From Seleniivibrio sp. (GTDB lineage: Bacteria > Chrysiogenota > Deferribacteres > Deferribacterales > Geovibrionaceae), in assembly GCF_021209385.1 (NCBI RefSeq), contig NZ_JAJOIL010000001.1, positions 1 through 64,000 on the forward strand: a DNA stretch of 64,000 bases. Reading direction: 5' to 3'. This document shows positions 31,250 to 52,569 of this stretch, one piece after another; the stretch's first letter is position 1; every line of letters starts with the position of its first letter. Under the pieces are notes generated by a model that was given only the letters and a program-made list of their open reading frames with translations, was not told the origin of the DNA and did no database searches. The position numbers and the translations under genes were made by a program.

Positions 31250-33421
31250 ATGACAGTCAGCGGCTGTTGTCCGTTCATCCTGCGTTTTTCAAGATCCATG
31301 CACAGACCAAACCCCAGAAAAGTCAGAGGCGGGTCACCACGGACTTCCTGCCGTGGGCTTCCGGACAGAGAAAGTATAGCCTACTCACTGGCATCGGGAT
31401 TCGGATTCTACAAAAAATTCGAGTACAACCGCTCCCTGCCGGTTTACAACATCATGACCCTCAGACAGGGTTCGTTTTCAAAATCACTCCGATACCACTT
31501 TCTAAGCTCTACAGGCATCAAACCCGTTGCCAGTCTTTCGCTTCCCGACCTTATTTTCGGCATCAACAGCGAAGAAGCGCTGACAAAACTGAACACCCAA
31601 GTACTCAGCGGCAGAGGCAAGGACTTTATGGCTTCTTTCAGTCACATAGAAACGATGCACACATTCATGCCGCATGACAAGCTCTCCCTCTGCAATCCTT
31701 TTGAATCAGGATTTTCTGAAATGAGTCCCGACGAAAGCATATACATCCACACCCTGCCCGGCGAAGGTGAAGAGAGCCTTCTTGGTTTTCTGAAAAACGA
31801 AGTATCTGCAGTCCGTTCAAAAATAATCAGAATTGGCACCTATCGAATAATTCAGGCGCATATCCCCGACGTAAAGGCTAAGCTGGATACAATAGTCACC
31901 CACAGTCTTGTGCGTTCTGTTTCCCCCGCATCCTGTCTGGTTTTGAAAGAGGATTATGTGCGGCATGGCGATCTGCCGCTGGAATGTGTGCAAACGCGCG
32001 ATACGGAAAAGATTTATCCGAGAGCCGCCATTGTGGATTCAGGCATAGCCCCATCCTCATATCTGCGCGAATGGGAGATGGATACCCTGAGTTTCTGCGA
32101 TGAGCCGGAAAGAGACCCCAAACACGGTACGTTTGTCACCGGCAGACTGCTTAACGAAGGTGAAAGCTTCGGCGGCATCGTCTATCTGAATGCGGAAATA
32201 CTTCCGGCGGGCGGAAGCATCGGACTGGCAGAGTTTCAGCAGAGGCTTGAGTCCACACTCAGGACTTACCACAAAATAGTTAAGGTGTACAATATATCCC
32301 TCGGTTCTGACATACAGACCGATCCTGACTCTTTTTCAGCGGCGGCACACGTTCTTGACTCGCTGCAGGAGCGCTATGACGTTCTGTTCATCATATCCGG
32401 CGGAAACTATGAAAGACTGCGCGACCCTTCGGAAGAGTATACACCTGACAACCGGATAACCTCACCCGCAGAGAGCGTACACTCCATAACCGTCGGTTCC
32501 GTCACACACAGGGACACCAACGTTCAGTCCCGTCATTCCCCCTCCCTATTCACACGAAGAGGTCCCTCATCCGCAGGTTTTATAAAGCCGGAAGTATGCG
32601 CATACGGCGGTTCCCATGAAAAACGGATGGGAAGGCTTTACCCCGTGGGAGTTTTTTCCATCGGCACACGGAACGAACTTGCAGAAGATTCCGGAACATC
32701 CCATGCGGTGCCTATGGTCACAGCTCTTGCCGCCAGAATTTTCCACAGATACTCACATGCATTTCAAAACCCCGACATGACAAAGGCAATACTCCTCCAC
32801 TACACCCGCCTGCATACACGCCGCCCGCCCGATCTTTACACGGGATACGGAATCATCACAGGTGACAGTGAAAATTTTGAAGATACACCATCAAGCGCAG
32901 TTTATCTGCATGAAGGCAACGTGCGCCATGGCGGGATAACGGAAGTGACCGGAATCCCCGTACCGGAATCCATGTGTGGAAAAAATGCGGGAAGCATTGA
33001 AATGACCCTTGTTTATAAAACAAGAACAGACCTGAACTTCCCACATTATTACTGCTGCACAAATCTGGAACTCTCTCTCGGCTATTACAAAAGAGGTGCA
33101 TGGAAGGCGATATTGACGTCTAAAGATTTGCTGGCTCTGCAAAAAAACGCGGAAGATAAGGAGACTAACAGGGAGATGTTCAAATGGAACCCTGTTAAGC
33201 TTTACGAAACAAGGCTGAAAGGGGGCGCACTGCCCGAAGAGCTGGTTCTCAGGATCACACCTTCCAAAAGAGACTTCTGTGCGGATAATACCGAAATAAG
33301 GTACTCTGTCGTCCTATCCTTCACTCATGAAAGAGAAAATCTGTTTGAAGAGATAATAATGCATTACGATGAATATGACGGGGTGCTGGAGCCTGCATCA
33401 AGAATGTGGAAAACCTGTTGA
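31250..33421 (+). CDS. Subtilisin-like (S8) serine protease, intracellular type
   Basis: The protein has 723 residues. The catalytic triad is visible as Asp263 (AAIVDSGIAP), His292 (KHGTFVTG) and Ser484 (DSGTSHAVPMV), with oxyanion Asn386 (ISGGNYE). There is no signal peptide. The N-terminal 60-250 region (VYNIMTLRQGSFSKSLRYHFL...LPDLIFGI) resembles that of cytoplasmic subtilases found on mobile elements, often next to an AAA ATPase; no ATPase is present here. The C-terminal 200 residues form a beta-rich extension. The gggaggtac box lies 10 bp before ATG 31250. Co-transcription with the repressor suggests it could control the switch. Confidence 0.85.
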   Translation: MTVSGCCPFILRFSRSMHRPNPRKVRGGSPRTSCRGLPDRESIAYSLASGFGFYKKFEYNRSLPVYNIMTLRQGSFSKSLRYHFLSSTGIKPVASLSLPDLIFGINSEEALTKLNTQVLSGRGKDFMASFSHIETMHTFMPHDKLSLCNPFESGFSEMSPDESIYIHTLPGEGEESLLGFLKNEVSAVRSKIIRIGTYRIIQAHIPDVKAKLDTIVTHSLVRSVSPASCLVLKEDYVRHGDLPLECVQTRDTEKIYPRAAIVDSGIAPSSYLREWEMDTLSFCDEPERDPKHGTFVTGRLLNEGESFGGIVYLNAEILPAGGSIGLAEFQQRLESTLRTYHKIVKVYNISLGSDIQTDPDSFSAAAHVLDSLQERYDVLFIISGGNYERLRDPSEEYTPDNRITSPAESVHSITVGSVTHRDTNVQSRHSPSLFTRRGPSSAGFIKPEVCAYGGSHEKRMGRLYPVGVFSIGTRNELAEDSGTSHAVPMVTALAARIFHRYSHAFQNPDMTKAILLHYTRLHTRRPPDLYTGYGIITGDSENFEDTPSSAVYLHEGNVRHGGITEVTGIPVPESMCGKNAGSIEMTLVYKTRTDLNFPHYYCCTNLELSLGYYKRGAWKAILTSKDLLALQKNAEDKETNREMFKWNPVKLYETRLKGGALPEELVLRITPSKRDFCADNTEIRYSVVLSFTHERENLFEEIIMHYDEYDGVLEPASRMWKTC

Positions 33422-34735: not shown

Positions 34736-34791
34736 AGGAATTGTTACAAATTTTATTTGTCATTTTTAAACATATACTACAAACAATTCCT
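34736..34791. promoter_or_regulatory. Nested inverted repeats upstream of the capsid operon
   Basis: aggaattgtt (34736-34745) and aacaattcct (34782-34791) are perfect 10-bp inverted arms 36 bp apart. Between them acaaat-ttt-atttgt (34746-34760) is a second inverted repeat. A tatact hexamer lies at 34773-34778. The layout suggests paired operators bracketing a promoter about 40-95 bp before the first phage gene. Confidence 0.5.
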
Positions 34792-34829: not shown

Positions 34830-35516
34830 ATGAAACTGGAACTTGCCAGAGCAGGAAACCACAACGGTGTTGTGATAACACCCGAAGATATTCTCAGCAT
34901 GGCTGAAAATTTTTCTTCGCAGGTACCTGTAACAATAGGACACGAATCTGACGATTCCATGCCGGCATACGGCTGGGTGACGGCTGTGGAAGTGTCTGCT
35001 GACGGTGCAGTGCTTCTTGGCGAGATAGAGCTTGGTGCGGAGCTGGCGGAGGCATTTGCCGAGGGCAGATACAAGAACTGGAGCATAGGTGCGGCGCGTA
35101 AAGAGGACGACAGCCTGTATTTGCACCACGTCGCGTTCCTCGGCGCCGTCCCGCCCATGATCAAAGATCTGAAAATAATCAGCATGGGCGACAGGACAAA
35201 GATAATCACCTTTTCACCTTTAAATTGCGGGTTCGTCCTTTCCGACAGCGAAATGAGCGAGTTTTCAAAGCTCAAAACGCAGAATCTGGAACAGAAATTG
35301 AACAGACTGAAAGAGGCGGCGGCGGGTAAACTCCCCTCCGGTGCATATCAGGCGCTCATCAGCTTCGCAGACAGACTTGAACGCGAAACACCCGCAGTTC
35401 AGGCATCAGACACCCTTGCAGAGATATTCGGAAGAGTGAAGAACCCCGTTTCACAGGGAACCCACGGGCTGAGATCCGAAAAGGCACCCGCGGCATCAAT
35501 ATTCTCAAAGATATAA
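34830..35516 (+). CDS. Phage Mu gpI-like capsid protease/scaffold
   Basis: This 228-residue protein fits the Mu gpI-like prohead protease family: VVITPEDILSMAENF, VTIGHESDDSMPAYGWVTAVEV, AFAEGRYKNWSIGA and LHHVAFLGAVPPMIKDL match the family's ordered conserved blocks, with the His in IGH a candidate catalytic residue. The C-terminal third (LEQKLNRLKEAAAGKL...) is helical, as expected for an internal scaffold cleaved during maturation. It is the first gene of the operon, with a strong aaggagg box. Usually such a gene follows terminase, portal and minor head genes; none is present upstream. Confidence 0.8.
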   Translation: MKLELARAGNHNGVVITPEDILSMAENFSSQVPVTIGHESDDSMPAYGWVTAVEVSADGAVLLGEIELGAELAEAFAEGRYKNWSIGAARKEDDSLYLHHVAFLGAVPPMIKDLKIISMGDRTKIITFSPLNCGFVLSDSEMSEFSKLKTQNLEQKLNRLKEAAAGKLPSGAYQALISFADRLERETPAVQASDTLAEIFGRVKNPVSQGTHGLRSEKAPAASIFSKI

Positions 35517-35526
35517 GGAGGAACGA

Positions 35527-35889
35527 ATGGCAACAGTCAACGGAGTGGTGGGAACACAGACCATCACAGGAAAAACGGTAACAGACGGCAGACACCCAGC
35601 CGTGATCCGCATTATGGAGTTTGCATCCGACGCAGGCACAATTCAGGCGGGCGAGATAATCGCCCTTGACGCATCCGGCAAGGCGGTCAGCTTTGACCCT
35701 GCGGCGTCCGACAGCACAAATACGCCCGTAGGCGTTTGCACTGAAGACATCGACACGTCAAAAGACACGGCTGGAAGCGTCGCCGTCCACGGCACAGTGA
35801 TGAAAAAGAGCCTTCTGACCAAAGGTTCCGCATCTTCCGCGGCGCACGTTGCGTCCCTTGAAACAAACGCACCCATCTGGGTATTTTAA
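35527..35889 (+). CDS. Phage head decoration protein (lambda gpD-like)
   Basis: This 120-residue protein lies between protease and capsid, the standard place of a head decoration protein. HPAVIRIMEFASDAGTIQAGEIIALDASGKAVSFDP and PVGVCTEDIDTSKDTAGSVAVHGTVMKKSLL match the pattern of the HDPD family, which trimerises on the shell and stabilises it. Strong aaggagg box, 10 bp after the previous gene and 9 bp before the capsid gene. Confidence 0.8.
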   Translation: MATVNGVVGTQTITGKTVTDGRHPAVIRIMEFASDAGTIQAGEIIALDASGKAVSFDPAASDSTNTPVGVCTEDIDTSKDTAGSVAVHGTVMKKSLLTKGSASSAAHVASLETNAPIWVF

Positions 35890-35898
35890 GGAGTTAAC

Positions 35899-36882
35899 AT
35901 GATACAGCTTGATCTCGGTAAATATTTTACAACGGACTCCATAGTCCGCTCGCTCACGTCCATGCCGGAGCTTAAATCCCCCGTTATGGACAACGTATAC
36001 CCCGAAACGAAAAGACGCAATCACCCGCTGCCCACAGTTTCCGTAACAGACCTGCAGCAGCCGGTAACAAACATAGCGGTGACACGCAGAGGCGGCGATC
36101 CTGTCCCCGTTTACGAAGAGAACGGCAGCATAACTCATATCGAACCCCAGCCCTTCCGCCCCTCCGAAAGGCTCAACGGCGTGGACGTGAACAACCTCAA
36201 ACTCCTTGACGAATCAGGCATCCAGCTCCTTGTGAACAACAAGATAGACCGCCTGCGCAGGATCGTCAGAGCATCCACCGAAGCTATGGCGGCTCAGTCG
36301 CTTAAGGGAAGTATCGCATATCCCATGCACATGGACGGAGGACTTGCCACATACGGGGTTGAGTTCGGCTCAACACTTTCACACACACCCGAAGAGACAT
36401 GGGATCAGTCTTCCATCAGCCTAGACGGAATCCTCGCCGACCTCATCGGCATGGAATCGCAGATTCAGAACAACAGCCACTACGGTTCCGACATCCGTTT
36501 CTGGGCTGGACAGAGCGCGTTCATGGCGCTGGCTAAGGTTGTTCAGGACATCGGAAACAGCTCGCTGACAGCGGTAATTGACTCAAAAACAATCAACATA
36601 GCCGGATTCCGTGTTGAGCTTATGAACAGCTCATACACAGACCTTGCCACAGGTTCGCAGGTAAAGGTGGTTGACAGCGGCAAGCTCATGGCGTTCGCCG
36701 CAGACGCACCATTTGAAATGGTTTACAGCGTCATCGACGATCTGGACAGCAACCTTACGGCGATGCCCTTTTTCGTTAAGCAGGTGCGCGACGCACGTTC
36801 TTCCAGCATAGAGATAATCGCGGAGAGCAAGCCGCTCCCCGTGCCTTTCACAAAAGGTATCTGCTGGGCGACAGTGCTTTAA
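35899..36882 (+). CDS. Major capsid protein (lambda gpE family)
   Basis: This 327-residue protein has HK97-fold capsid features of the Phage_cap_E family: N-terminal YFTTDSIVRSLTSMPELKSPVMDNVYPETKRRNHPLP, the VPVYEENGSITHIEPQPF segment, a helical spine with VNNKIDRLRRIVRASTEAMAAQSLKG, and the C-terminal APFEMVYSVIDDLDSNLTAMPFFVKQVRDARSSSIEIIAESKPLPVPF. It is intact and of normal length. With protease and decoration genes it forms a complete set for building an empty shell. A strong GC hairpin and a repeat lie just downstream. Confidence 0.9.
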   Translation: MIQLDLGKYFTTDSIVRSLTSMPELKSPVMDNVYPETKRRNHPLPTVSVTDLQQPVTNIAVTRRGGDPVPVYEENGSITHIEPQPFRPSERLNGVDVNNLKLLDESGIQLLVNNKIDRLRRIVRASTEAMAAQSLKGSIAYPMHMDGGLATYGVEFGSTLSHTPEETWDQSSISLDGILADLIGMESQIQNNSHYGSDIRFWAGQSAFMALAKVVQDIGNSSLTAVIDSKTINIAGFRVELMNSSYTDLATGSQVKVVDSGKLMAFAADAPFEMVYSVIDDLDSNLTAMPFFVKQVRDARSSSIEIIAESKPLPVPFTKGICWATVL

Positions 36883-36892
36883 GACTTTTTGA

Positions 36893-36911
36893 GGCGGGGT
36901 TCTGCCCCGCC
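36893..36911. repeat. Strong GC hairpin after the capsid gene
   Basis: ggcgggg / ccccgcc (7 bp, perfect) around ttctg, 11 bp after the capsid stop. There is no T tail, so it is more likely to stabilise the upstream mRNA or lower downstream expression than to end transcription fully. Confidence 0.6.
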
Positions 36912-36927
36912 CTGGAAATTAAACTAT

Positions 36928-37001
36928 GAGACTGCGTCGTCACGTTGTTCCTCGCAGAGACGTTTGCCGTCTTCGCGAGGCGCGCAGCAACGACGCGATC
37001 T
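36928..37001. repeat. REP-like palindromic repeat, copy 2, inside the phage operon
   Basis: gactgcgtcgtcacgttg ... ccgtcttcgcgagg ... caacgacgcgatct. It shares the cgtcttcgcgagg core and the gacgcgatct end with copy 1 at 30432-30499. It fills the gap between the capsid and gp36-like genes. Confidence 0.65.
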
Positions 37002-37017
37002 CATTATGGAGCTTAAT

Positions 37018-37389
37018 ATGGAACTTATTGACATTGAAGAGATACAGGAACTCATGCGCGACGACGACTACCTTGCAGTATGTCAGGGGGACGATTCCGT
37101 AGCGGAAGAGGCGCTGGAAAATGCCCGCATCTACGTTCAGGCAGTGGCAGACAGTTACGGGCTGGAATATGACGAATCGGACGCGGTTCTGCGCCTCGCG
37201 GTGAAAAAGCGCACTCTGGTAGAACTTTACATCTACGCCGCCGAATGGACAACCGCAGAACAGTACAAAACCGAAACAGCACAGCTTCTCGCGCCGCTGG
37301 CACCCGTCACCTCATCCACGGGCGAGATACCCAAACAGGCGGCGGCATACACACAGACGGGACGGGGCGACTGGCAGGGATACAGATGA
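37018..37389 (+). CDS. gp36-like (DUF1320) head-completion protein
   Basis: This 123-residue protein matches the DUF1320/Mu gp36 pattern: an acidic N-terminus with IEEIQELMRDDDYL, ALENARIYVQAVADSYGLEYDESDAVLRLAVKKRTLVELYIYA, and a Pro/Thr-rich tail. Family members act at the head-tail joining stage in Mu-like phages. Start ATG 37018 (ggag box 8 bp before) is preferred; the frame is open back to 36889 through repeat sequence. Its stop overlaps the next start (ATGA). Confidence 0.75.
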   Translation: MELIDIEEIQELMRDDDYLAVCQGDDSVAEEALENARIYVQAVADSYGLEYDESDAVLRLAVKKRTLVELYIYAAEWTTAEQYKTETAQLLAPLAPVTSSTGEIPKQAAAYTQTGRGDWQGYR

Positions 37390-37739
37390 GGACAGCGGAT
37401 CAGCTTACGCTGGACACGGTGCAGGTGCTTGAGGAGTGCGGAGTTTTTACCCGAGTTCTGCTGAAAGACGGCAGTACAGAGGTGATGACGGGAAAGGAAC
37501 CGCTGGCTGCGGTCGCCTATGCAGGATTTGAAACAGTTAACGACAACGGCGTGCAGGTGACGCAGCATAATCTGAAAATATACGTCCGCCTGCTCTCTGT
37601 GGGCAGGGCAGATATATCGCCATTCCACACAGCGGTCAATGCACTCGGTGCGACACGCCCGATCAGCCTTTCAAGCAGTATACAAACAACCGACACACGC
37701 ACCATGACCTTTGTCATCGAGTGCGGATACAGGTGCTGA
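37386..37739 (+). CDS. Phage protein, probable tail-completion/neck type
   Basis: This 117-residue protein begins with RTADQLTLDTVQVLEECGVFTRVLLKDGSTEVMTGKEPLAAVAYAGFE. By position (after the gp36-like gene) it would correspond to a neck or tail-terminator protein such as Mu gp37, but sequence similarity is not strong enough to be sure. It is beta-rich with a conserved-looking end FVIECGYRC. The start overlaps the previous stop by 4 bp. Confidence 0.6.
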   Translation: MRTADQLTLDTVQVLEECGVFTRVLLKDGSTEVMTGKEPLAAVAYAGFETVNDNGVQVTQHNLKIYVRLLSVGRADISPFHTAVNALGATRPISLSSSIQTTDTRTMTFVIECGYRC

Positions 37740-37740
37740 A

Positions 37741-38109
37741 ATGATAACCATAGCAGGAATAGCACTGCCCGAAACGGCGGTGTGGACAAACGAAACGGCA
37801 TACGGACTGCCGCAGACCGACACGGAAACCGACCTTTCGGGTACCGAGATAGTATACGCAGGCAAACCTTACAACAGTATCGAGATATATATCCCCGCCA
37901 CCGAAAGCGGCATGAAGCGGGAGGACGTTCTTGCCCTCTGCCGCGCGGCATCGGCGGCGGCGGCAGTTCACGCAGATATAAACGGCAGGCAGATGGAGGT
38001 TGTTTTCGTAAGCGACAGCAGTGCAGTTCAGCTTAAGCCGCTGAACGCCAGACAGGTTCAGTCGGATGCCGACGTTTACAGCGGCACCATAAGGCTTTTG
38101 GAGGTTTAG
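37741..38109 (+). CDS. Small phage structural protein of unknown role
   Basis: This 122-residue protein reads MITIAGIALPETAVWTNE..., with an IEIYIPATESGMKREDVLALCRAA segment and a helix AASAAAAVHADINGRQMEVVF. It resembles small tail or tail-hub-associated proteins by size and place but no family is recognised. It starts 1 bp after the preceding stop and is followed by a strong ttggagg box for the next gene. Confidence 0.6.
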   Translation: MITIAGIALPETAVWTNETAYGLPQTDTETDLSGTEIVYAGKPYNSIEIYIPATESGMKREDVLALCRAASAAAAVHADINGRQMEVVFVSDSSAVQLKPLNARQVQSDADVYSGTIRLLEV

Positions 38110-38110
38110 A

Positions 38111-39061
38111 ATGAATCAGAGCGACATCAGCATAATAAGAAGCGTAAACATCACCGACACCGACGATAACGGCGGCAGAGCGAACCTTGCTTCCACCGTG
38201 GTTTCAGGCGTCAAATTCAACCTTTTCCCCCGTGTCACCTCTGCAGAGAGGGAGACTGGAGTGACCAGGTACCGCAAGGCGTTCATCGCAAACTCAAACG
38301 TGAACGGAGAGACGGCGTATTCCGCATGTGTGTGCATCGGCACTCCCGGAAACGGTCAGGACAGATTTTACATTGCACAGGCGGGCATGGCGGACACTCA
38401 GGCTGAACTGCCCGACGAATGGACGGGATGCGGAAAACTCACTCAGAGCGCCACGGCGGGAGATGAAAGTATCACTCTGCTGTTCAAATCATCAGATTAC
38501 AGCATCCCCGAAGGCGCGCTTCTGCTCATCAGGGACGATGAAAAATCATGCAATATGCGCGTGGCATCCGTTTCCGGAAACGTCAACACTGCCACCGTAT
38601 CGCTCGTAGGTCAGTTACCACATTCGTTTGAGGCAAACGCGGCTTATGCGGGCGTTATGCTTGAACTGGGCGACCTCGAACCTGTCCTTGAAAGCGCATC
38701 ACTGAACAGTCTCACGGGGGCTTTCGATCATGAGCTTGTGGTGCTTTCCAACGGAGGCACGGAATACGACACCTTTTCGCTGACGTTCACATCGGCAATA
38801 TCATTTTCTGCAACAGGGCTTTACGCAGGTACTCTGCCTTCCGGTCAGTCCACAGCCCAGTATGCACCTCTGAACCCGAAAACAGGAAAACCCTATTTCA
38901 CCATTCCGGCGGAAGCATGGTCAGGTTCATTTGAAGCCGGAAACAGCCTTACACTCGTCACCCTGCCCTCTGCAAAAGGTTTCTGGCTGAAAGAGGTCGT
39001 ACCCGCCGGATGCCCCCACGAACCCGATAACAGAATAACACTTGAATGGCAGATAGACTGA
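38111..39061 (+). CDS. Phage structural protein, NGGR-type family
   Basis: This 316-residue protein begins IIRSVNITDTDDNGGRANL, then VVSGVKFNLFPRVTSAERETGVTRYRKAFIAN. I have the impression that a similar D-T-D-NGG-R ... FP-V--AER--G-TRYRK pattern occurs in structural proteins of Mu-like prophages of deltaproteobacteria, but cannot confirm it. The C-terminal half is beta-rich (SGQSTAQYAPLNPKTGKPYFTIPAEAWSG), ending with HEPDNRITLEWQID. Possible roles are tail tube, collar or baseplate-like plate; none can be assigned. Confidence 0.6.
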   Translation: MNQSDISIIRSVNITDTDDNGGRANLASTVVSGVKFNLFPRVTSAERETGVTRYRKAFIANSNVNGETAYSACVCIGTPGNGQDRFYIAQAGMADTQAELPDEWTGCGKLTQSATAGDESITLLFKSSDYSIPEGALLLIRDDEKSCNMRVASVSGNVNTATVSLVGQLPHSFEANAAYAGVMLELGDLEPVLESASLNSLTGAFDHELVVLSNGGTEYDTFSLTFTSAISFSATGLYAGTLPSGQSTAQYAPLNPKTGKPYFTIPAEAWSGSFEAGNSLTLVTLPSAKGFWLKEVVPAGCPHEPDNRITLEWQID

Positions 39062-40233
39062 TGAACAGATTCGCCAACTTCGCGCGCTCACAGCTTGCGG
39101 CGTACCTTCATGCCAACGGCACGGAACTGACAGTTCAGAATGCGGAACTGTTTCCGGAAGGCAGTTTCACCGCCGTCATATGGGGAAACGGTTTCGCATC
39201 CCCTGCGGACGACCCTAACCGCGAAATAGTTCTGGCGCAGAAAACCGAAAGCACCATATCTGTCGAGCGCGGCAGGGAAAGCACATCGGCAAAGGACTGG
39301 AACACAGGGAGCATGATGGCCAACGTGGTCACGGCGGAAATGCTGAACACCTTTGCATCTGCAAGGTCTTTCAGGGTGGTCACCGATTCAGGAAGTGTTA
39401 TCGACCCGTTCGATTGCACTGTCGCCATCTCCTTCAGCAAGGCGAACCAAAGCATAAGCTGTGTTCTGCCTGATGCCGCGCTTTACAGCGGCGACGTGCT
39501 GACCATCATCAACAGCGGAACAGAGCCTTCGCAGTATGCGGTGATTATAGCTGCCGAAGGGGACACTATAGGTCTGAACGGCATTACGCAAACCACACTG
39601 GGTTCTGCATGTACTGTGAAACTGGCTGTCATCGGCGGGATATGGCGCATCATCGGGACAGGGATTTTCTCGCCCCACTCTTTTCAGACTTTTACAACCA
39701 GCGGACCTGTCTTTTCCTACGGTTCCGCTGTGTACGCCGATGCGTCGGAATCCCCTTTGTATCTGTACATTCAGCAGAACAGCGCCATGACCAATGTACC
39801 CGTCCCGGTCATAAAAACGGACGAAACCGATAACTCCGTTTTCATTTACGACACGGCAAACAAACTGCTCGCAGAACTGAAAGAAGAAGGCGGCTCCTTC
39901 TGGTTCATGCAGACTGCTTACGGCGGCATTGTAAACCTCACACCTGAAAGCGGCGGTTCATCGGGAACGGGCGGAACTGCTTCCGTCACGGGATATTACA
40001 GTCTGCCAAGCGGCATATCCTATATCTTCGCCGACGCATCGGTTGGCTATGCATATGTCAGCATGGGCAGTGCATCGGAACATGCGGGGCAGTCCGTAAC
40101 GGTTATCAGGACTGACACTAACTCAAATCCTGTGATGATCGGAGATATCGAAACATCTGAAATCATGCTGGAGGCGGAAGGAAGCTTCCGCACATACGTT
40201 TCAAGCGGAACCAAATGGTTCAGGACGGCATAG
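39061..40233 (+). CDS. Phage tail fibre-like protein
   Basis: This 390-residue protein's N-terminal 110 residues have the layout of a common tail-protein head domain (FPEGSFTAVIWGNGFASPADDPNREIVLAQKTES, TISVERGRESTSAKDWNTGSMMANVVTAEMLNTF). Repeated beta-rich modules follow, e.g. FDCTVAISFSKANQSISCVLPDAALYSGDVLTI and SVGYAYVSMGSASEHAGQSVTVIRTD. This fits a trimeric fibre or spike. Start ATG 39061 overlaps the previous stop (TGATGA); an in-frame ATG 39046 lacks a ribosome site. Confidence 0.65.
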   Translation: MNRFANFARSQLAAYLHANGTELTVQNAELFPEGSFTAVIWGNGFASPADDPNREIVLAQKTESTISVERGRESTSAKDWNTGSMMANVVTAEMLNTFASARSFRVVTDSGSVIDPFDCTVAISFSKANQSISCVLPDAALYSGDVLTIINSGTEPSQYAVIIAAEGDTIGLNGITQTTLGSACTVKLAVIGGIWRIIGTGIFSPHSFQTFTTSGPVFSYGSAVYADASESPLYLYIQQNSAMTNVPVPVIKTDETDNSVFIYDTANKLLAELKEEGGSFWFMQTAYGGIVNLTPESGGSSGTGGTASVTGYYSLPSGISYIFADASVGYAYVSMGSASEHAGQSVTVIRTDTNSNPVMIGDIETSEIMLEAEGSFRTYVSSGTKWFRTA

Positions 40234-40234
40234 C

Positions 40235-41866
40235 ATGGACACTTGCGCCGGAGATTACACAGCTTCGGGGTTTTCGCCGTCAGACACAAAAACAGGCGGG
40301 TGCGGTATCACCACGCCTTTCATCATATCGGGAGGGACATATTCAATGACAACGGTTTCCACAGGCGGCACAACCGTCTTATCAACATCACTGACATGTT
40401 CCGAAGAGCTGATACTCACTGCGGAGATGACAGCAGTAACCTTAGGATCGTGCGAAGCGATGAACTCTCTGTCGGCGATGGAAGACCCGTCGGCGGGAAC
40501 AGAACTTTTTAACAGCCTGTCTGCGGACGGTCTTCTGACAGTTCCATCCGTGAGCGGTCAATATCTAAGCACCGATATTTCTTTGTCAAATACACTGGGC
40601 GACTTCGGCTATACGGGATTTATAAATATGGAAAATCCGCTGTATCCGGCAGGTCTGAGCGGCAGTTTTGCCGTTTCAGTTCCTTCGGCGGCAGGCTTTG
40701 TATCAGCAGATACGTTCACCGTTTTCATCGACGGCAAAGACGTCACAAAGTATCTGACGGAACTGAATATTTCGCTCTTCGACGTCCCGTCGGTAAAAGC
40801 GTCTTTCGGCATTATGTTTAAAAGCGCGAAAACTCTGTCGGCTGTTATTAATGACGAAACCTTCACATTTGGCATCAGTTCCGTATCTTCATCGGACAAA
40901 AGCACAGTGCTGACAGGTCTGATATCTGAGCCGGAAGGCAGTTTTTATGCCGAAATCACGGGCAAAAAAGCATCGGAAGCGGCGGCGGAGCTTTCAGACA
41001 GGATAATATGGGCGGCACGGGATTTCGTAACAACTTTCAAAGGTTCCTTCACCCACATGTCTCTGGCGCAATATCTGGCAGACAGTGCGGGGCTGTCGGT
41101 ACGTCTTCTGCCCGACGGATACATAGCGGTCACAGATGACGGTTCCGACATCGAACTGATACCGACCGGAATATTTTCACGCACATTTGAAAGAACTGAA
41201 CACAAATATAAAACCATAACAGTAAATTACGGTGCATATTCATCGGATTATGTACATATAATTGCTCCTTCCGAAACGGGTACAGGCGAAGCGGCTGAAA
41301 TAAGACTTTATCACAGCGGGAACGCCAGCCTGATAAGCGATTCGGAAAATCTAACCCTCGTAAGCCGCAACGTTGCGGAAACCGTCACCGAGGACGTACT
41401 TTTTACAGATGGCGAAGGAACGCTTTCAGTTCCCGCAAGGTCGGTAATCACAGCAGGAATCGGATATGACGGCACAAGTGTAACAAGCCGCAGTCTGAAC
41501 GGTTACAGAACCGTCACCTATACAACGCGCTTCGACCTCTACACCGTGACGGAAACAGCGGAGACAAAAAAATATGTCACTGCTGTCACCGACAGCAGCG
41601 TGACAATCATTTTCAGAGACGGCGAAGGTTCACTCACCAAAAGCACCCCTGCCCTGTGCGACAGGGTTTCGGCTCTCCGTCTGGCTATGAATCTGGCATA
41701 CACCACAAACAGAATAACACTGGAAACAACCCACATGAACGGACTGACGACTGCGGCGGGACTGAAACTCAGAAGCAGATTCGGCTCAGGCAGAGTAACA
41801 TCCGCCGTCATAAAGATATCCGGCAGTCCGCTCAGGGTGAAAAATATAATCGAGGTACAGCCATGA
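40235..41866 (+). CDS. Large phage structural protein, possible tail hub
   Basis: At 543 residues this is the largest gene of the operon. The N-terminal 160 residues are Ser/Thr/Leu-rich and repetitive (SGGTYSMTTVSTGGTTVLSTSLT). The central part (about 165-345) contains FTVFIDGKDVTKYLTELNISLFDVPSVKASFGIMF and YLADSAGLSVRLLPDGYIAVTDDGSDIELIPTGIFSRTFERTEHKYKTITV, resembling the plan of tail-hub/late-control-D proteins. The C-terminus ends LKLRSRFGSGRVTSAVIKISGSPLRVKNIIEV. It is far too short and not coiled enough to be a tape measure. Confidence 0.6.
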   Translation: MDTCAGDYTASGFSPSDTKTGGCGITTPFIISGGTYSMTTVSTGGTTVLSTSLTCSEELILTAEMTAVTLGSCEAMNSLSAMEDPSAGTELFNSLSADGLLTVPSVSGQYLSTDISLSNTLGDFGYTGFINMENPLYPAGLSGSFAVSVPSAAGFVSADTFTVFIDGKDVTKYLTELNISLFDVPSVKASFGIMFKSAKTLSAVINDETFTFGISSVSSSDKSTVLTGLISEPEGSFYAEITGKKASEAAAELSDRIIWAARDFVTTFKGSFTHMSLAQYLADSAGLSVRLLPDGYIAVTDDGSDIELIPTGIFSRTFERTEHKYKTITVNYGAYSSDYVHIIAPSETGTGEAAEIRLYHSGNASLISDSENLTLVSRNVAETVTEDVLFTDGEGTLSVPARSVITAGIGYDGTSVTSRSLNGYRTVTYTTRFDLYTVTETAETKKYVTAVTDSSVTIIFRDGEGSLTKSTPALCDRVSALRLAMNLAYTTNRITLETTHMNGLTTAAGLKLRSRFGSGRVTSAVIKISGSPLRVKNIIEVQP

Positions 41867-42366
41867 CCGACGCAACAATAAGCTTCGTCACATCATCCAA
41901 AGGCTCAAAAATACTGATAACGCAGGATGCAGACAGAAACATCGACGAATACGGCAAGACCAAGACATCATTTGCATACGGGGAAACGGCATATTTCAGG
42001 GTTTATGCGGAACACCCTGACAAACTGGCAGTTTTCGCATCCGACGGTACGCTGACCCCAATGGGTATATGCACGGAAGACGTTGAGGATGAGACCGTCG
42101 TCTTTCTGGATTCCTCATCTGCAGACACAGACAAACCCGTAACATCAGTCAGCAGTTATGAATGGATGGGCGGCAGTCTGGGCGCAGTCACACGCAAAGG
42201 AACATACTCCGTACAATGCGAGGTTGAGCCAAAACCCTCGCAGGGGCTTTTCTCGGCGGCTCTGATAGGTTATCGCACAGCATACGCTCTTTACGGCATA
42301 ACTCTCACGACAAAGGATAGAGACAGCTATCCCGTAATCGTCTATGCGGAGGTTGTAAATGGCTGA
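41863..42366 (+). CDS. Phage structural protein of unknown function
   Basis: This 167-residue, beta-rich protein has FVTSSKGSKILITQDADRNIDEYGKTKTSFAYGETAYFRVYAEHPDKL and a second half with YEWMGGSLGAVTRKGTYSVQCEVEP. It looks like a baseplate- or fibre-attachment domain, but no family is recognised. It overlaps the preceding gene by 4 bp (ATGA) and the next by 8 bp. Confidence 0.6.
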   Translation: MTDATISFVTSSKGSKILITQDADRNIDEYGKTKTSFAYGETAYFRVYAEHPDKLAVFASDGTLTPMGICTEDVEDETVVFLDSSSADTDKPVTSVSSYEWMGGSLGAVTRKGTYSVQCEVEPKPSQGLFSAALIGYRTAYALYGITLTTKDRDSYPVIVYAEVVNG

Positions 42367-43078
42367 TACCAGTCTGACATTCAAAAAAACCTCAGACAGC
42401 GACATATTCCGTTTCATCCTCGAACCGGAAGAGAACAACGGCACCACCGTCTTTGCGGCAGGTACAACTGCAAGGCTCAAACTTTACCCGGGAGGGCTTA
42501 ACCCCACGCTTAAAGCGACATACGGAAGCGCCTCATTTTACGGTACGAACCACAGGCAGACTGTCACCGAGTTCATAATATTCAAAGACAGCAAAAAAGC
42601 TTCCGCCTCATTCCCTGTGGACACGGTGATATCCGCCGTATGGCAGGGCGAACAGGCGGGTAATCCGGTATTTTCGGAGAGCGCAGTAATACTTCCTGAA
42701 AACGCCACCGCAGTTCTTAGGATAGAATACGAGACAGTTTACGACATAGTTGACGTGACGTGCGGCAGTTCCGTCTTCTGCCTTGTGTCCGCAGAAAAGG
42801 ACGGGCGAAGCGGAATCTATGCACTGGATTTTACGGATGACCTGACGGGAACCTACAACAGAACGGTCGTACTCACTGTTCGGGATGCATGCACAAAGAA
42901 AAAGCTGAAGGACGCCCACGTCTATCTGAACGGAAAGTATGCCGGAAAGAGCGACAGCGAAGGCAGGGTGCGTCTGGGGAGCATGAAAAGCGGCACATAC
43001 AGCCTTCTTGTGGAAAAGGAAGGATATAAAACCACGGATGCGGACAACATCTGCAACGATACGTTCACGGTGTCATGA
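42359..43078 (+). CDS. Phage protein with C-terminal carboxypeptidase-regulatory-like domain
   Basis: The protein has 239 residues. The N-terminal 160 residues are an unknown beta-rich domain similar in plan to the preceding protein (SDIFRFILEPEENNGTTVFAAGTTARLKLYPG). The C-terminal 70 residues (RTVVLTVRDACTKKKLKDAHVYLNGKYAGKSDSEGRVRLGSMKSGTYSLLVEKEGYKTTDAD) form a transthyretin-like/PEGA-like beta sandwich as found in carboxypeptidase regulatory and surface-binding proteins. In phage particles such domains decorate tails or heads and bind cell surfaces. Good gcggagg box. Confidence 0.65.
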   Translation: MADTSLTFKKTSDSDIFRFILEPEENNGTTVFAAGTTARLKLYPGGLNPTLKATYGSASFYGTNHRQTVTEFIIFKDSKKASASFPVDTVISAVWQGEQAGNPVFSESAVILPENATAVLRIEYETVYDIVDVTCGSSVFCLVSAEKDGRSGIYALDFTDDLTGTYNRTVVLTVRDACTKKKLKDAHVYLNGKYAGKSDSEGRVRLGSMKSGTYSLLVEKEGYKTTDADNICNDTFTVS

Positions 43079-44055
43079 TGGCGCGCTACGTTACAGAGGA
43101 ATACTCGTCAGTGGGCGTCTGGCTGTGTCCGTCGGAATACACCCCATCGGGTATGTGTTATCCTGACAAGTGCGTGTCCACCTATGTAACAACGTCGGTC
43201 ATCACAGACGAACCGCCCGTAAACGGCTGGCCTTCATACGGATTTGAGACCGTTTCAGTCAACGTTTATCTGATTGAAGAGGACGGCGGTGAATACGTCG
43301 TGAATCTGTTTCTGCTCCCCTCAGACAAAACGGAAAAAGAATTCACTCCCCCCTGCGCAAACTACACGGATGCAGACACCACATCGCCATGGGAGCGTTC
43401 GGGAAACCACATAACCGCCTATTTACCCGTCATAAACACATGCGGAGTTACTGCTCTTTTAACCTATTACAGTTCATCTGGTTTCAGCGAAACAAACATA
43501 AATCCGTCAGGCGAGATAACCTCCGCATTTCCCGAATACACTCACAACGTTGACGGGAGCATACCGCTTTCAACATCGCTTTCAAACACACTACTGATTC
43601 CGGGACGCACAGTTTCCGTTTTTTTCAGGATGTACGATCTGCCGGAAGAATACTATCTGGGTTCTTACAGTTTTCAGACAGATATTTTTACGGGCGCTGT
43701 TCTGCTAGGGTGTGGTGTGACCGTCCGCCGGAAGGTGTACAACGACAAAAACGATCCGGAAAAGGGGTATACCTACGAATATTTCCCTGTAAAAGGGGGA
43801 ATAGGACACAGCTTAAAAGATGAATGGCTGTACGAAAAGGAACTCCGTTGGTGTGTAGAATATCACGGCGAACGCTGCTGGTTAAAATCAGTTTCGCCAT
43901 GCAGACTTTCTGTGGGCAGTTTTGTGGCAATTGCAAAAAATCTTGATCTGCCGCTTCTGCCCGACACTGACATATCCAATGCCAATGTTAAAAAAACTCT
44001 TTCTGAATCAGGGGATTTCATAGTCCCCGAAATGTTTTATCAGGGGGCGGTATGA
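43075..44055 (+). CDS. Phage structural protein of unknown function
   Basis: The protein has 326 residues. No family is recognised. It is cysteine-rich for a cytoplasmically made protein (CPSEYTPSGMCYPDKC at the start), beta-rich, with YFPVKGGIGHSLKDEWLYEKELRWCVEYHGERCWLKSVSPCRLS in the last third. The cysteines could bind metal or form disulfides in the particle. Translationally coupled on both sides (ATGATG at 43075; ATGA to the next gene). Confidence 0.55.
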   Translation: MMARYVTEEYSSVGVWLCPSEYTPSGMCYPDKCVSTYVTTSVITDEPPVNGWPSYGFETVSVNVYLIEEDGGEYVVNLFLLPSDKTEKEFTPPCANYTDADTTSPWERSGNHITAYLPVINTCGVTALLTYYSSSGFSETNINPSGEITSAFPEYTHNVDGSIPLSTSLSNTLLIPGRTVSVFFRMYDLPEEYYLGSYSFQTDIFTGAVLLGCGVTVRRKVYNDKNDPEKGYTYEYFPVKGGIGHSLKDEWLYEKELRWCVEYHGERCWLKSVSPCRLSVGSFVAIAKNLDLPLLPDTDISNANVKKTLSESGDFIVPEMFYQGAV

Positions 44056-45125
44056 TCTATTCACAGAACGCCCTTGACCCCACCGAAAACATCTCTTACG
44101 CCGAGGGGCGAGTCACAAAAACCAATCACACGGAAAACACGGTGGAAGTGGCGGTGAGCGGCGCAGCATACGGCGACCTGCCCATAGTATACGAATCCGC
44201 TGACGGCAAGCCAGAATCCTACGCTTTCTCCGTCAGCGATACGGTGGTCGTCAGACTGTATAAAGGAGTGCCGTCACACATTATCGGATTCAAAGACAGG
44301 CTCTGGTCTTTCGTCCCGATGCCTGCGGAAGTATATGAAACAGATAACTTCATCATGTCTTCGGGGCTTCTGCACAGAACGGAATTAGTCCGCTCACAAA
44401 AAGCAGCTTTCAACAGGGCTTATGAAGCGATGAAAAAAAGGACATGCGCGGTAAGCACGCCGACGTACATAAACGAACCTGCGCCGGACGACACCAACGG
44501 AAAGATATACTCCCTTCAGGTACACCAGACCACAAACGTCTATACCCGCCTGACCCGTTACTATTTCGGCAGTGAATTCATCTATGAAACGTACAACGAA
44601 GAGACAACATCCGGCGTTTTCAACGGCACGCGTTCAAACGTTATAACCGCCCACGTTGACCCCATAAGCGGCGCGGCGTTTGTGATATACCAGATAAACA
44701 CCTTCACCGACTGGAAGCCGCAGACATCCGGCAGGGTGGATTTCGACTTCTACCTGTACTCATCACTTGGCACACACGAAAAGATTGCGAGCGCTTACAC
44801 CATTGTCACAGGAGCATCGTCTCCTGTTTACGGCGAATGTATCGGATACGAAACGACAGGTTTCTACTGTGAAGACACAGTCGGCACAGGTTTTTTCATA
44901 GGCGGGTTCTATACCTGCTCAGTGAATCCTTTCACAGCGGCTTCCGGCACAAATACAGTGTCAACTGGAGCATACATTAAATACAGCAGATTCATCCAAT
45001 CGTGGGCACCGGACGGATACGGCACGTCTGTCATAAACTATAACTGCGACGAAGACGGGAATATTGAACTCACTGCCGGACTGTATGTGTCGCCTGACGG
45101 AAATATTTATAAAAAGAAACGATAA
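44052..45125 (+). CDS. Phage structural protein of unknown function
   Basis: The protein has 357 residues. The N-terminal 80 residues (AEGRVTKTNHTENTVEVAVSGAAYGDLPIVYESADGKPESYAFSVSDTVVVRLYKGVPSHIIGF) resemble an OB-like beta-barrel as in tail-spike or hub-tip proteins, which would fit a puncturing-device or plug role. The rest is Thr/Tyr/Ser-rich beta sequence. No enzymatic motif is seen. It is followed by 12 bp with a strong caggagg box. Confidence 0.55.
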   Translation: MIYSQNALDPTENISYAEGRVTKTNHTENTVEVAVSGAAYGDLPIVYESADGKPESYAFSVSDTVVVRLYKGVPSHIIGFKDRLWSFVPMPAEVYETDNFIMSSGLLHRTELVRSQKAAFNRAYEAMKKRTCAVSTPTYINEPAPDDTNGKIYSLQVHQTTNVYTRLTRYYFGSEFIYETYNEETTSGVFNGTRSNVITAHVDPISGAAFVIYQINTFTDWKPQTSGRVDFDFYLYSSLGTHEKIASAYTIVTGASSPVYGECIGYETTGFYCEDTVGTGFFIGGFYTCSVNPFTAASGTNTVSTGAYIKYSRFIQSWAPDGYGTSVINYNCDEDGNIELTAGLYVSPDGNIYKKKR

Positions 45126-45137
45126 ACAGGAGGAGAC

Positions 45138-46574
45138 ATGAGCTATAAGAGCGTAAAAGAGATTCTGAACGATGTTTTTGACAGTTCGGACAACGTTCTC
45201 AGAGGTATCCACAAAACTGAGGGTGAAGTTCTGAACATGGTTCTGGACGAAACGGGAGACCCGTCACTAAAGGTACGCATCGAAGGTCTGGAGGACGATT
45301 TTTACACAAAAACTCAGACCGATACCCAGCTTTCTGCAAAAATGACAAGGTCTGCAATGGCTGGGATGGTGGGAAATCTTTCCGCGCCGCTTACGCATCT
45401 GCCTTTGAAAAAGAACCTTCTGACCGCACAGGGACAGAGCATCTGCACGTTCACAAGGGCATCGACAGCGACATACATCGACAGATACGGGGTGCTTAAA
45501 ACAGCCGCAGCCGACACACCGCGTTTCACAGCTGACGGTTTGTTAGTAGAAGGTGCTTCAACAAATCTGCTCACATATTCAGATCAGTTCGATAATGCGG
45601 TGTGGGCGAAATCTGGGTCTTCTATCAGTGCAAACACGGCTGATACAACTGACCCATACGGAACCAATCTGGCTGATAAACTGACTGAGGATACAAGCAC
45701 TGCATCGCACTTTGTTGAAAGCGGGAATATATCGTTTACCTCCGGTACGGTATACTCATTGTCGGTTTTTGCAAAAAAAGCGGAACGTGATCAATTCAGA
45801 CTATATTTTCCCTCAAGCATAACAAGCGGCAGATACGGGCATTTTGATTTATCAGCAGGAACAGTTGTTTCAACGGGATCGGGGATAACCGCTAAAATAA
45901 AGAAATTAGTAGACGGATGGTACAGATGCTCTGTAAGCGTAACCGCAGGAGCTACAACCACAGGCAAGCCGTCATTAGTTTTGGCTCAGTCGAATTCAGT
46001 TGTAACATACACAGGCGACGGCACATCGGGGCTGTATATCTTCGGCGCACAGCTTGAAGCAAATCCGGGCATGACAAGCTATATCCCGACAACTACGGCG
46101 CCGGCAACACGGGCGGCGGAGGTCTGTTCTTTCCCTATTACCGATAATATGGTTAAAATCCTGCAATCAACGGGACATACCTATGTGATGGATATAAAGA
46201 TGTTATGGAGTCCATCAGCGGCGACAGACAGGATAGCGCTTGGTGGGGATACTCTAGTCACCCGATTCGCCTTAGGTTTCTACGGTGGAGGGGTATTCTC
46301 TCACAATGCAAAAGGGGGGACTTCGTATAGCGCACTGTCAGGTATTGATACTCTCTTAAGGCACAGATACAGCACCGTGTATACCGGAACCGGAACCGAT
46401 TTTTACATAGATGGCACATATAAAGATCGCAGATCAGATGTGGTACCGACTTCCGATAATACATCAGTTATGTATATCGGCTCCGCATCCGGAGGGCGCT
46501 ATCTTAACGGTACTATATCAAACCTGCGCATCTATGACCATGCGCTGACAGAAGAGGAGGTAAATGCGGCATGA
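45138..46574 (+). CDS. Tail fibre/receptor-binding protein with LamG-like domain
   Basis: The protein has 478 residues. A short helical N-terminus (MSYKSVKEILNDVFDSSDNVL) is followed by a coiled segment (KVRIEGLEDDFYTKTQTDTQLSAKM). Then comes the phage-spike pattern LLVEGASTNLLTYSDQFDNAVWAKSG...YIFGAQLEANPGMTSYIPTTTAPATRAAE, and a concanavalin/LamG-like domain ending RYLNGTISNLRIYDHALTEEEV. These parts commonly bind surface glycans. It is likely the receptor-binding fibre of the particle. The stop overlaps the start of the next small gene. Confidence 0.75.
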   Translation: MSYKSVKEILNDVFDSSDNVLRGIHKTEGEVLNMVLDETGDPSLKVRIEGLEDDFYTKTQTDTQLSAKMTRSAMAGMVGNLSAPLTHLPLKKNLLTAQGQSICTFTRASTATYIDRYGVLKTAAADTPRFTADGLLVEGASTNLLTYSDQFDNAVWAKSGSSISANTADTTDPYGTNLADKLTEDTSTASHFVESGNISFTSGTVYSLSVFAKKAERDQFRLYFPSSITSGRYGHFDLSAGTVVSTGSGITAKIKKLVDGWYRCSVSVTAGATTTGKPSLVLAQSNSVVTYTGDGTSGLYIFGAQLEANPGMTSYIPTTTAPATRAAEVCSFPITDNMVKILQSTGHTYVMDIKMLWSPSAATDRIALGGDTLVTRFALGFYGGGVFSHNAKGGTSYSALSGIDTLLRHRYSTVYTGTGTDFYIDGTYKDRRSDVVPTSDNTSVMYIGSASGGRYLNGTISNLRIYDHALTEEEVNAA

Positions 46575-46846
46575 CAGATATCATTATTATATATAAGACG
46601 GAAGAGGAAATCGAAGGGCTCACAGTGACCCCTTACGAAACTGACGGTGACGTAAAGATGTGCCTTTGCAGGTGTGAAACAGAGCCGGAGGGAGTAGCGG
46701 TTCTCGGAACATATGAAGAGGTTTTCGCCGATGAAACAAAAAAAATCATATACGACCGCATCTATCCGCCGACATATTCATATACCGACAGCTCAGGCGA
46801 AACTGTAGAAGTTAAAAAGCCTCAAAAGTTCGGGGTGTTCGCATGA
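46571..46846 (+). CDS. Small protein after the fibre gene, possible fibre chaperone
   Basis: This 91-residue acidic protein (TDIIIIYKTEEEIEGLTVTPYETDGDVKMCLCRCETEPEGVAVLGTYEEVFADETKKI) ends in a Tyr/Thr-rich tail (YPPTYSYTDSSGETVEVKKPQKFGVF). Position right after a fibre gene and 4-bp overlap suggest a fibre assembly or cap protein, but no family is recognised. Confidence 0.55.
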   Translation: MTDIIIIYKTEEEIEGLTVTPYETDGDVKMCLCRCETEPEGVAVLGTYEEVFADETKKIIYDRIYPPTYSYTDSSGETVEVKKPQKFGVFA

Positions 46847-47064
46847 TAATGGACATATCGGACATAATACAGAACCTTGGCGGGCTTTCGGCTATGGTTC
46901 TTCTGCCCATATGGCGCACGATAAACGAGCTGAGAAGGGGTCAGGAAAAGACAAACGTCATACTGGCTCGGGACTACGTTGCAAAGAACGAATGCAAACA
47001 TCGCCACGAGCTTCTGCACGCAGACATAGCGAGAGTTCACGACAGAGTGGACGAGATATTCTAA
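46843..47064 (+). CDS. Small terminal protein of the phage operon
   Basis: This 73-residue protein has an N-terminal amphipathic or weakly hydrophobic stretch (DISDIIQNLGGLSAMVLLPIWRTINEL) followed by a charged helix with CKHRHELLHADIARVHDRVDEIF. This is the plan of small phage proteins near lysis genes, but one hydrophobic segment is too weak to call it a holin. It overlaps the previous gene by 4 bp, and its stop codon overlaps the stop of the convergent kinase gene. Confidence 0.55.
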   Translation: MIMDISDIIQNLGGLSAMVLLPIWRTINELRRGQEKTNVILARDYVAKNECKHRHELLHADIARVHDRVDEIF

Positions 47065-51735: not shown

Positions 51736-52551
51736 TTAATACTTTACTGCATGCCAGTGTATCTTATACACTCTGCAATCTGCGTGGAGTTCGGAACCTT
51801 TCTGGTGAACAACAGGTTCTCCCGCTCCGACTTCAGGAGCAAAAAGCACCTTATCGGCTGAAACGAACGCCCGCATATATTTGAGCGATGAGCCGTCAAA
51901 ATAGAGAACAGGTTCTCTATCACCCAGATCGCCAATGGTTAATTTTTCAACGTACAGAATGTCTGACTCGTTGACCTTTGGAGCGAATCTTCCGTCATTA
52001 ACGGAAACCCACACCGCGCCTTTTTCCTTCTCGCATCTGCCGTCTTCGACATCGCTAAGGTTAAATCTGATAACAGGTGCTTCCGGTTCATACAGAACAG
52101 ATTCTGCTTCCGCGGCGGAGGATGCTCCGAAATCCATCGAATATCCCTCCTCTTCCCCGATCAGATCCGAAACTTTGCATGTCAGACAGCCTGCAAGGTT
52201 TTCGATTAAATCTCTTTCAAACTCACCGTACCCAAGTTCAAGTCTCGAAATAAACTGAACGTCGAGCTTCGCAACAACAGCCAGATCGCTTTTGGAAAAA
52301 CCTCTCTTTTCCCTCATCTTTTTAATGTTTTCCCCGATCTCTTTGGTGTTTTTGATGTTATCGCCATAGGCGAAATAATCTAATTTCACTTCCAGAAATC
52401 TGGCTACTCTGGAAAGTGTTTCAAGATCGGGTTCTCTGCTGCCGCTCAGGTAGTTTGAAAGCCTGGAAGGTGAAAGCCCGACAGCACGGCAAACGTCTAT
52501 CTGCTTAATTCCCTTCCTTTTGATTAATTTACGAATCTTATCTCCCAACAT
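51736..52551 (-). CDS. Double-HTH regulator with degenerate S24-like domain
   Basis: This protein has about 271 residues. There are two XRE helix-turn-helix domains (roughly residues 3-60: IKQIDVCRAVGLSPSRLSNYLSGSREP; and 68-125: FSKSDLAVVAKLDVQFISRLELGYGEF). A C-terminal LexA/S24-like fold follows. Where S24 proteases have GDSMEP, this one reads DGRFAPKVNESDILYVEK, so the nucleophilic Ser is replaced, while a Lys is kept in SSLKYMRAF. It therefore probably senses without self-cleavage. ATG 52551 is taken because a TATAAT at 52572-52577 would place transcription start after an alternative ATG at 52569; this choice is uncertain. Confidence 0.75.
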   Translation of the reverse strand: MLGDKIRKLIKRKGIKQIDVCRAVGLSPSRLSNYLSGSREPDLETLSRVARFLEVKLDYFAYGDNIKNTKEIGENIKKMREKRGFSKSDLAVVAKLDVQFISRLELGYGEFERDLIENLAGCLTCKVSDLIGEEEGYSMDFGASSAAEAESVLYEPEAPVIRFNLSDVEDGRCEKEKGAVWVSVNDGRFAPKVNESDILYVEKLTIGDLGDREPVLYFDGSSLKYMRAFVSADKVLFAPEVGAGEPVVHQKGSELHADCRVYKIHWHAVKY

Positions 52552-52569
52552 AAATGAATCATACCTCAT

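Follow-up and report, generated by a model that had tools for sequence, protein, structure and literature searches.

A candidate gene-transfer-agent-like particle encoded at two separate loci in the Geovibrionaceae

The window analysed, the first 64 kb of contig C30 in the 2.9-Mb draft genome (G000) of a species of Seleniivibrio (Geovibrionaceae, Deferribacterota), carries at 34830-47064 an operon of phage-type capsid and tail-tip genes. Together with a second locus for the DNA-packaging motor and portal, this capsid operon probably encodes a dispersed, co-regulated and vertically inherited DNA-packaging particle that resembles a gene transfer agent (GTA) and has a strongly shortened or absent tail. 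As packaging and transfer of host DNA, the defining property of a GTA, are predicted here from sequence, the label 'GTA-like' is used; that the system transfers DNA is favoured, with less confidence. Known GTAs have phage-derived genes that are inherited vertically, are under purifying selection and often lie at several loci, only a handful are known outside the Alphaproteobacteria, and new ones cannot currently be located from sequence features alone (PMC11841831).

The operon consists of 16 intact open reading frames (ORFs), all on one strand, flanked by genes for a TPR lipoprotein and a PAS histidine kinase. Their products are a gpI-type protease, a lambda-D-type decoration protein, a lambda-E-type capsid protein, a connector, and tail-tip and fibre proteins; the protease, decoration, capsid and tail genes could be identified by profile (phrog_976, phrog_49, Phage_cap_E/phrog_29, phrog_4408, phrog_6128 and phrog_5939). 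An ORF check confirmed the coordinates and intact frames given in a first-pass annotation of this DNA and counted 16 same-strand genes where fifteen had been claimed. The tight spacing it described holds for the operon (gaps of -29 to +12 bp) apart from 123 bp behind the capsid gene. Searches with Pfam and PHROG profiles upheld the reported absence of terminase, portal, tape-measure, integrase and replication genes from the operon, and minor head and tube genes were likewise not found among the 16. The flanking proteins scanned with Pfam are host genes, with no integrase or replication gene among them.

The statement that DNA-packaging genes are lacking stood for the capsid locus but not for the genome. 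The annotation had suggested a search elsewhere for terminase and portal genes without capsid genes of their own, and these are present in G000 as a mini-operon of TerS, TerL and a Mu-type portal at C12:85389-88468 (locus L088), on a different contig from the capsid operon. A Terminase_6N-family terminase was found in all 12 Geovibrionaceae genomes searched, never inside the capsid operon, with a TerS-like gene upstream and a Portal_Mu portal downstream (portal 2e-86; TerL, phrog_38, 2e-125). The 12 genomes represent four genera only (g1 to g4); in each of the five g1 genomes the TerS-TerL-portal locus and the capsid operon are on different contigs, and in g2-g4 the distance between them is about 12-40 kb and is taken up by host genes. 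An alignment of the 11 intact TerL copies, from which the copy of G009, with an in-frame TGA, was excluded, shows no variation in the Walker A motif PPRHGKSE, in the IIDDP-type Walker B region or in the acidic nuclease residues. A helix-turn-helix (HTH)-like region, so assigned from sequence, is retained at the N-terminus of all 12 TerS proteins, which match phage TerS families.

The lambda portal family PF05136 was also tried, and had no match in the Seleniivibrio genome, the portal being of the Mu type. The phrog_2 terminase family gave mainly weak scattered matches and one prophage-type match in G009.

The capsid gene occurs once, intact, in each of the 12 genomes (62-97% identity across the four genera) and was absent from all 28 genomes searched that represent the order's other families. 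When about 85,000 bacterial and archaeal species were scanned with capsid patterns, the matches were confined to the Geovibrionaceae clade. Neither a scan of 2.9 million viral contigs with the capsid alignment nor a viral-contig scan with p7 patterns found a relative, both relying on short peptide patterns that missed the contig G041 described below, which carries both genes; tblastn with the capsid protein gave no match in 50,697 phage records. In each of the 12 genomes the gene set and its order are the same, a recurrence far beyond chance. Two outcomes had been named as telling against the first-pass interpretation, namely terminase, portal and tape-measure genes inside the operon or a locus confined to a single strain, and neither was seen. 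The neighbourhood is also shared, as that interpretation had anticipated: in g1 and g4 the operon lies between ftsY and glnK-amtB (G002 has a different amtB there and in G004 the contig ends), and one neighbour adjoins it in every genome:

33720..34679, - strand: TPR lipoprotein, divergent neighbour of the capsid operon in 12/12 genomes

Unrelated prophage-type terminase, tape-measure or minor-head genes occur sporadically (G009:C9:7135-8601, G003:C3, G005:C1:1151462, G010:C1 and G010:C7), in contrast to the clade-wide capsid and packaging loci.

The two loci appear to be jointly controlled, as they have a promoter element in common. In the window this element and a candidate regulator are found at:

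34766..34775, + strand: TTAAACATAT promoter element, start of TTAAACATAT-N15-TGTATTATT, common to the TerS operon
51736..52569, - strand: Cro/CI-like HTH protein and candidate regulator; its gene accompanies the capsid locus in genera g1 and g4 and the portal locus in g2 and g3

In all eight g1 and g4 genomes both the capsid and the TerS operon are preceded, at a distance of 53-74 bp, by TTAAACATAT (16/16 operons; 13 exact copies and three with one mismatch). In most the element is followed at near-constant spacing by a -10-like GTAnnAT, giving the composite TTAAACATAT-N14-16-GTAnnAT. Each exact copy in the g1/g4 sequence initially examined was located at a capsid or TerS promoter. In 1.6 Mb of G007, half of that genome, there are 12 copies of the bare 10-mer but only two of the composite that includes the -10 box, one at each operon; no third locus with this promoter was found there, nor any endolysin or other gene resembling those of G041, except for a single weak match to p11 (E 0.003). 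The g3 genomes, as compared by eye, seem to share another pair of upstream sequences. The Cro/CI-like HTH protein may possibly regulate the loci.

The genes of the capsid operon, named p1 to p16 in order, are as follows.

34830..35516, + strand: p1, head maturation protease of the Mu gpI type (phrog_976 5e-23; G041 homologue 7e-65; 12/12 genomes)
35527..35889, + strand: p2, capsid decoration protein of the lambda D type (HDPD 6e-7; phrog_49 2e-11)
35899..36882, + strand: p3, major capsid protein of the lambda E type (Phage_cap_E 2e-50; phrog_29; single copy in 12/12 genomes)
37006..37389, + strand: p4, head-tail connector by position (G041 homologue 8e-27, between capsid and neck genes)
37386..37739, + strand: p5, neck/tail-completion protein by position (G041 homologue 9e-6, between neck and tube genes, directly 5' of the tube gene)
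37711..38109, + strand: p6, phrog_4408 protein (2.8e-12; the family sits behind the tape measure in Ares1, ACPWH and G041)
38111..39061, + strand: p7, conserved tail-tip protein (phrog_6128 7e-25; G041 1.9e-116; 12/12 genomes)
39046..40233, + strand: p8, variable fibre-like protein (phrog_6427/phrog_8469; dN/dS 0.2-0.4)
40235..41866, + strand: p9, baseplate-hub/tail-associated-lysin-like protein (G041 1.5e-62)
41863..42366, + strand: p10, tail-tip protein (phrog_24905 4e-14; Vibrio phages; G041)
42359..43078, + strand: p11, tail-tip protein and p10 paralogue with a C-terminal PEGA/carboxypeptidase-regulatory-like domain (profile matches; G041)
43075..44055, + strand: p12, tail-tip protein (G041 1.7e-18; 12/12 genomes)
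44052..45125, + strand: p13, fast-evolving tail-tip/fibre protein (orthologue recognised in g1 and g4 genomes only)
45138..46574, + strand: p14, tail fibre with a LamG-like lectin domain (phrog_5939 2e-61; Laminin_G_3 6e-12)
46571..46846, + strand: p15, small protein (found in G000, G002 and G003)
46843..47064, + strand: p16, small protein with a hydrophobic N-terminal stretch (eight genomes, g1 and g4)

No Pfam or PHROG family matched p4 or p5 above cut-off. The true start of p6 is probably about 10 codons downstream of the called start. Foldseek with p9 gave the P1 baseplate and prophage gp18 as top matches, the query being a poor AlphaFold model (pLDDT 53), so that its assignment as a baseplate hub is only a lead; the p7 model was also poor (pLDDT 40). 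The N-terminus of p14 is conserved and the remainder variable.

FastTree trees of capsid, TerL, portal and six further head or tail-tip genes have all well-supported deeper splits in common with those of ftsY and ftsY+ROK, and conflicts are limited to the closest tips. The ratio of nonsynonymous to synonymous substitution (dN/dS, NG86) had been expected to lie below 1 in the relatives' copies and does so by a wide margin: it is 0.02-0.08 for capsid, 0.03-0.05 for TerL and 0.04-0.08 for the portal, compared with 0.03-0.10 for ftsY, and rises to 0.2-0.4 in the fibre genes p8, p9 and p14. Since dS is often above 1 the absolute ratios are rough, but all are nevertheless far below 1.

The sporadic distribution, integrase or att sites and decay of a prophage or prophage remnant are therefore not what was found, the system being present in 12/12 genomes with intact core genes and dN/dS well below 1. 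A functionless, slowly decaying remnant of an ancient prophage would account for the many phage genes that are gone and for the damage seen in three genomes (the insertion in p11 of G007, the split p12 of G011 and the TerL stop of G009). It is contradicted by core genes intact in 12 genomes of four genera, by dN/dS of 0.02-0.08 at dS of about 1 or more, by invariant catalytic residues and by two co-inherited loci with a shared promoter, and is very improbable. Equally improbable is that the loci belong to an active phage, satellite or plasmid-phage, moving horizontally and dependent on a helper for its tail. The genes are phage-like, and the other tailed-prophage genes of G003, G005 and G010 mark possible helpers, but the trees agree with those of the host, the two loci are separate, no integrase or replication gene was found in the operon or the scanned flanks and no relatives were found outside the family; moreover, nine of the 12 genomes have no match to the PF10145 tape measure above the family cut-off. 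The first-pass view, which took the operon for a head/fibre module belonging to a dispersed or repurposed system and not for a dead prophage, is supported by the second locus, the conservation and the dN/dS values.

The probable ancestry of the system was seen in phage contigs. Phages L188-L194 were reached through portal relatives in IMG/VR; their portal, protease, decoration and capsid genes are contiguous, mostly with TerL directly before them; p4 is also contiguous in all except L194. This contiguity implies that the two bacterial loci were once one module and have since split. A 42.9-kb contig, G041 (IMGVR_UViG_3300028030_000027; L203-L205), is collinear with the capsid operon. Its order is TerL, portal, minor head, p1, p2, capsid, a 426-amino-acid protein, p4, neck, p5, tube (phrog_807) and chaperone, followed by a 902-amino-acid tape measure, p6, p7, two genes, p9, p10, p11 and p12. 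As its TerL is from a different family, TerL must have been exchanged in one of the lineages.

No homologue of the minor head, neck, chaperone or tape measure of G041 was found in the 12 pairs of loci, and a homologue of its tube was found in one pair only, that of G005 (4.5e-25). A genome-wide search with the tube family gave the G005 operon and otherwise weak prophage-type matches in G003 and G010. Searches with the tape-measure families PF10145, phrog_2335 and phrog_973 turned up genes of the prophage type sporadically in G003, G005 and G010 and otherwise nothing but weak matches, and the Mu F minor head was above cut-off in G003 and G010 only. Judged by gene content, the domesticated version is one that has lost the minor head, neck, tube (except in G005), chaperone and tape measure, although tube and tape measure could be present yet too diverged for detection.

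With a tube in one genome and a tape measure in no locus, a stubby or tailless particle is predicted. A tailocin or injection device that arose from the tail-tip genes of a phage, the capsid genes being carried along, is the least probable of the explanations considered: tail-tip and fibre genes are numerous, but no tube, sheath or tape measure was recognised, and the best-conserved genes are capsid, terminase and portal. A tailocin would have a tail tube and tape measure and neither capsid nor terminase.

Several observations weigh against a GTA-like particle. Of a tail able to deliver DNA, tip and hub-like genes are present and tube and tape measure were not found, which makes delivery doubtful; the minor head, which the related phages carry, was not found in any of the 12 locus pairs. 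In the complete genome of G007 a DDE transposase is inserted in p11 (L027:6605-8005), p12 is split into two ORFs in G011, and TerL has an in-frame TGA stop in G009; the last two are metagenome-assembled genomes, in which these may be assembly errors. No lysis gene was recognised in the Seleniivibrio operon, and an M15-type endolysin-like gene lies in the operon only in g2 and g3 (G005, with equivalents in G006, G008 and G010), none being recognised in g1/g4. Finally, the system is known here from its genes, and the particle, its packaged DNA and the transfer are inferred.

In the g2 and g3 operons the endolysin gene (Peptidase M15-like; L022:10851-11282 in G005) is followed by one for a protein of 69-72 amino acids with a hydrophobic stretch.

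If a GTA-like particle is made, the capsid locus would supply the head shell (protease, decoration and capsid), the connector and the tail tip and fibres, and the TerS-TerL-portal locus the packaging motor and portal, the shared promoter element turning both on together. Capsids would assemble, be matured by p1 and be filled with cellular DNA by the intact terminase via the Mu-type portal; p4/p5 and a fibre-bearing tail tip would then close the filled heads, and the released particles would recognise kin through their fibres. The ancestral long tail of tube, chaperone and tape measure would have been deleted. The most likely role would be that of a GTA or a close functional equivalent by which host DNA is packed and exported, with uptake by a recipient suggested only by the retained, fast-evolving fibres.

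The same genes might instead make a DNA-packaging particle that is not a GTA: a tailless or short-tailed capsid for DNA storage or release or for kin competition, or a released scaffold for fibre display. The tape measure was found with neither locus in any of the 12 genomes, nor the tube in 11 of them, while head, motor and tail-tip genes are still under purifying selection, all of which such a particle would explain. Against it, hub-like, tail-tip and diversifying fibre genes (dN/dS 0.2-0.4) are kept, which suggests cell contact, and terminase and portal imply packaged DNA; this explanation is considered unlikely, if the most serious of the rivals. Returning to the GTA-like particle, there is perhaps an even chance that it is specifically a two-locus, co-regulated, stubby-tailed device for gene transfer or DNA export, of independent origin in the Deferribacterota, in which motor, portal, tip and fibres were kept and of which G005, with its tube gene, represents an intermediate.

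The system was compared with the GTAs RcGTA, BaGTA, VSH-1, Dd1 and CcGTA. Like these it has phage-derived head, packaging and tail genes (the tail as a tip only) that lie at more than one place, are inherited vertically within a clade and are under purifying selection; again as in GTAs, neither the operon nor the scanned flanks showed genes for replication or integration. It differs in its phage ancestry (lambda-E capsid, Mu-type portal and phrog_38 TerL), in the splitting of motor and portal from the head genes, in the tube and tape measure that were not found and in the HTH-like domain kept by TerS; a TerS without a DNA-binding domain is usual, but not universal, in GTAs. With the siphophage-like G041 it shares the collinear series portal-p1-p2-capsid-p4-p5-p6-p7-p9-p10-p11-p12, whereas G041 has all its genes contiguous and adds extra genes to the other-family TerL and the minor head, neck and long-tail genes. 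The Vibrio siphophages Ares1 and PG28 and the Acidovorax phage ACPWH have p6 and p7 directly behind the tape measure (p10 too in the Vibrio phages), but they have a complete long tail, and the p1 and capsid profiles do not recognise the head genes of Ares1 and PG28. The head module of bacteriophage Mu has the same Portal_Mu portal and gpI-type protease, whereas the Geovibrionaceae system has no minor head F, contractile tail or transposition genes and has a lambda-E capsid.

In the open-access literature, whose coverage is incomplete, no report of a GTA in the Deferribacterota and no earlier description of the split particle of the Geovibrionaceae was found, which makes this a GTA candidate in a phylum without one reported in the literature searched. 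Several independent signs coincide in it: the clade-wide locus pair, the host-congruent trees, strong purifying selection, the shared promoter and an intact phage for comparison. As cultured members of the clade exist, the candidate is open to direct testing, and the loss of tube and tape measure poses the question of how, or whether, the particle delivers DNA. Looking first for a capsid operon that lacks packaging genes, next for packaging genes that lack a capsid and last for a promoter common to both could be a reusable route to dispersed GTAs.

Some smaller features of the loci were also observed. The 123-bp gap behind the capsid gene (window 36885-37005) holds a GC-rich hairpin and then a REP-like interspersed element, and a similar REP-like element lies between the TerL and portal genes (L088:3290-3360), so that these repeats have entered both loci in G000. 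A 6.3-kb contig filed as viral, L187 (IMGVR_UViG_3300032154_000066), carries TerS-TerL-portal; with a histidine kinase and a Cro/CI-like gene alongside, as in g3, it is probably a misfiled host fragment from the Geovibrionaceae. Window 31250-33421 encodes a large S8 subtilase, which has a family of homologues carried by phages (phrog_3964) and is neighboured by an XRE regulator and an HTH_17 protein; its position is kept in g1 and g4.

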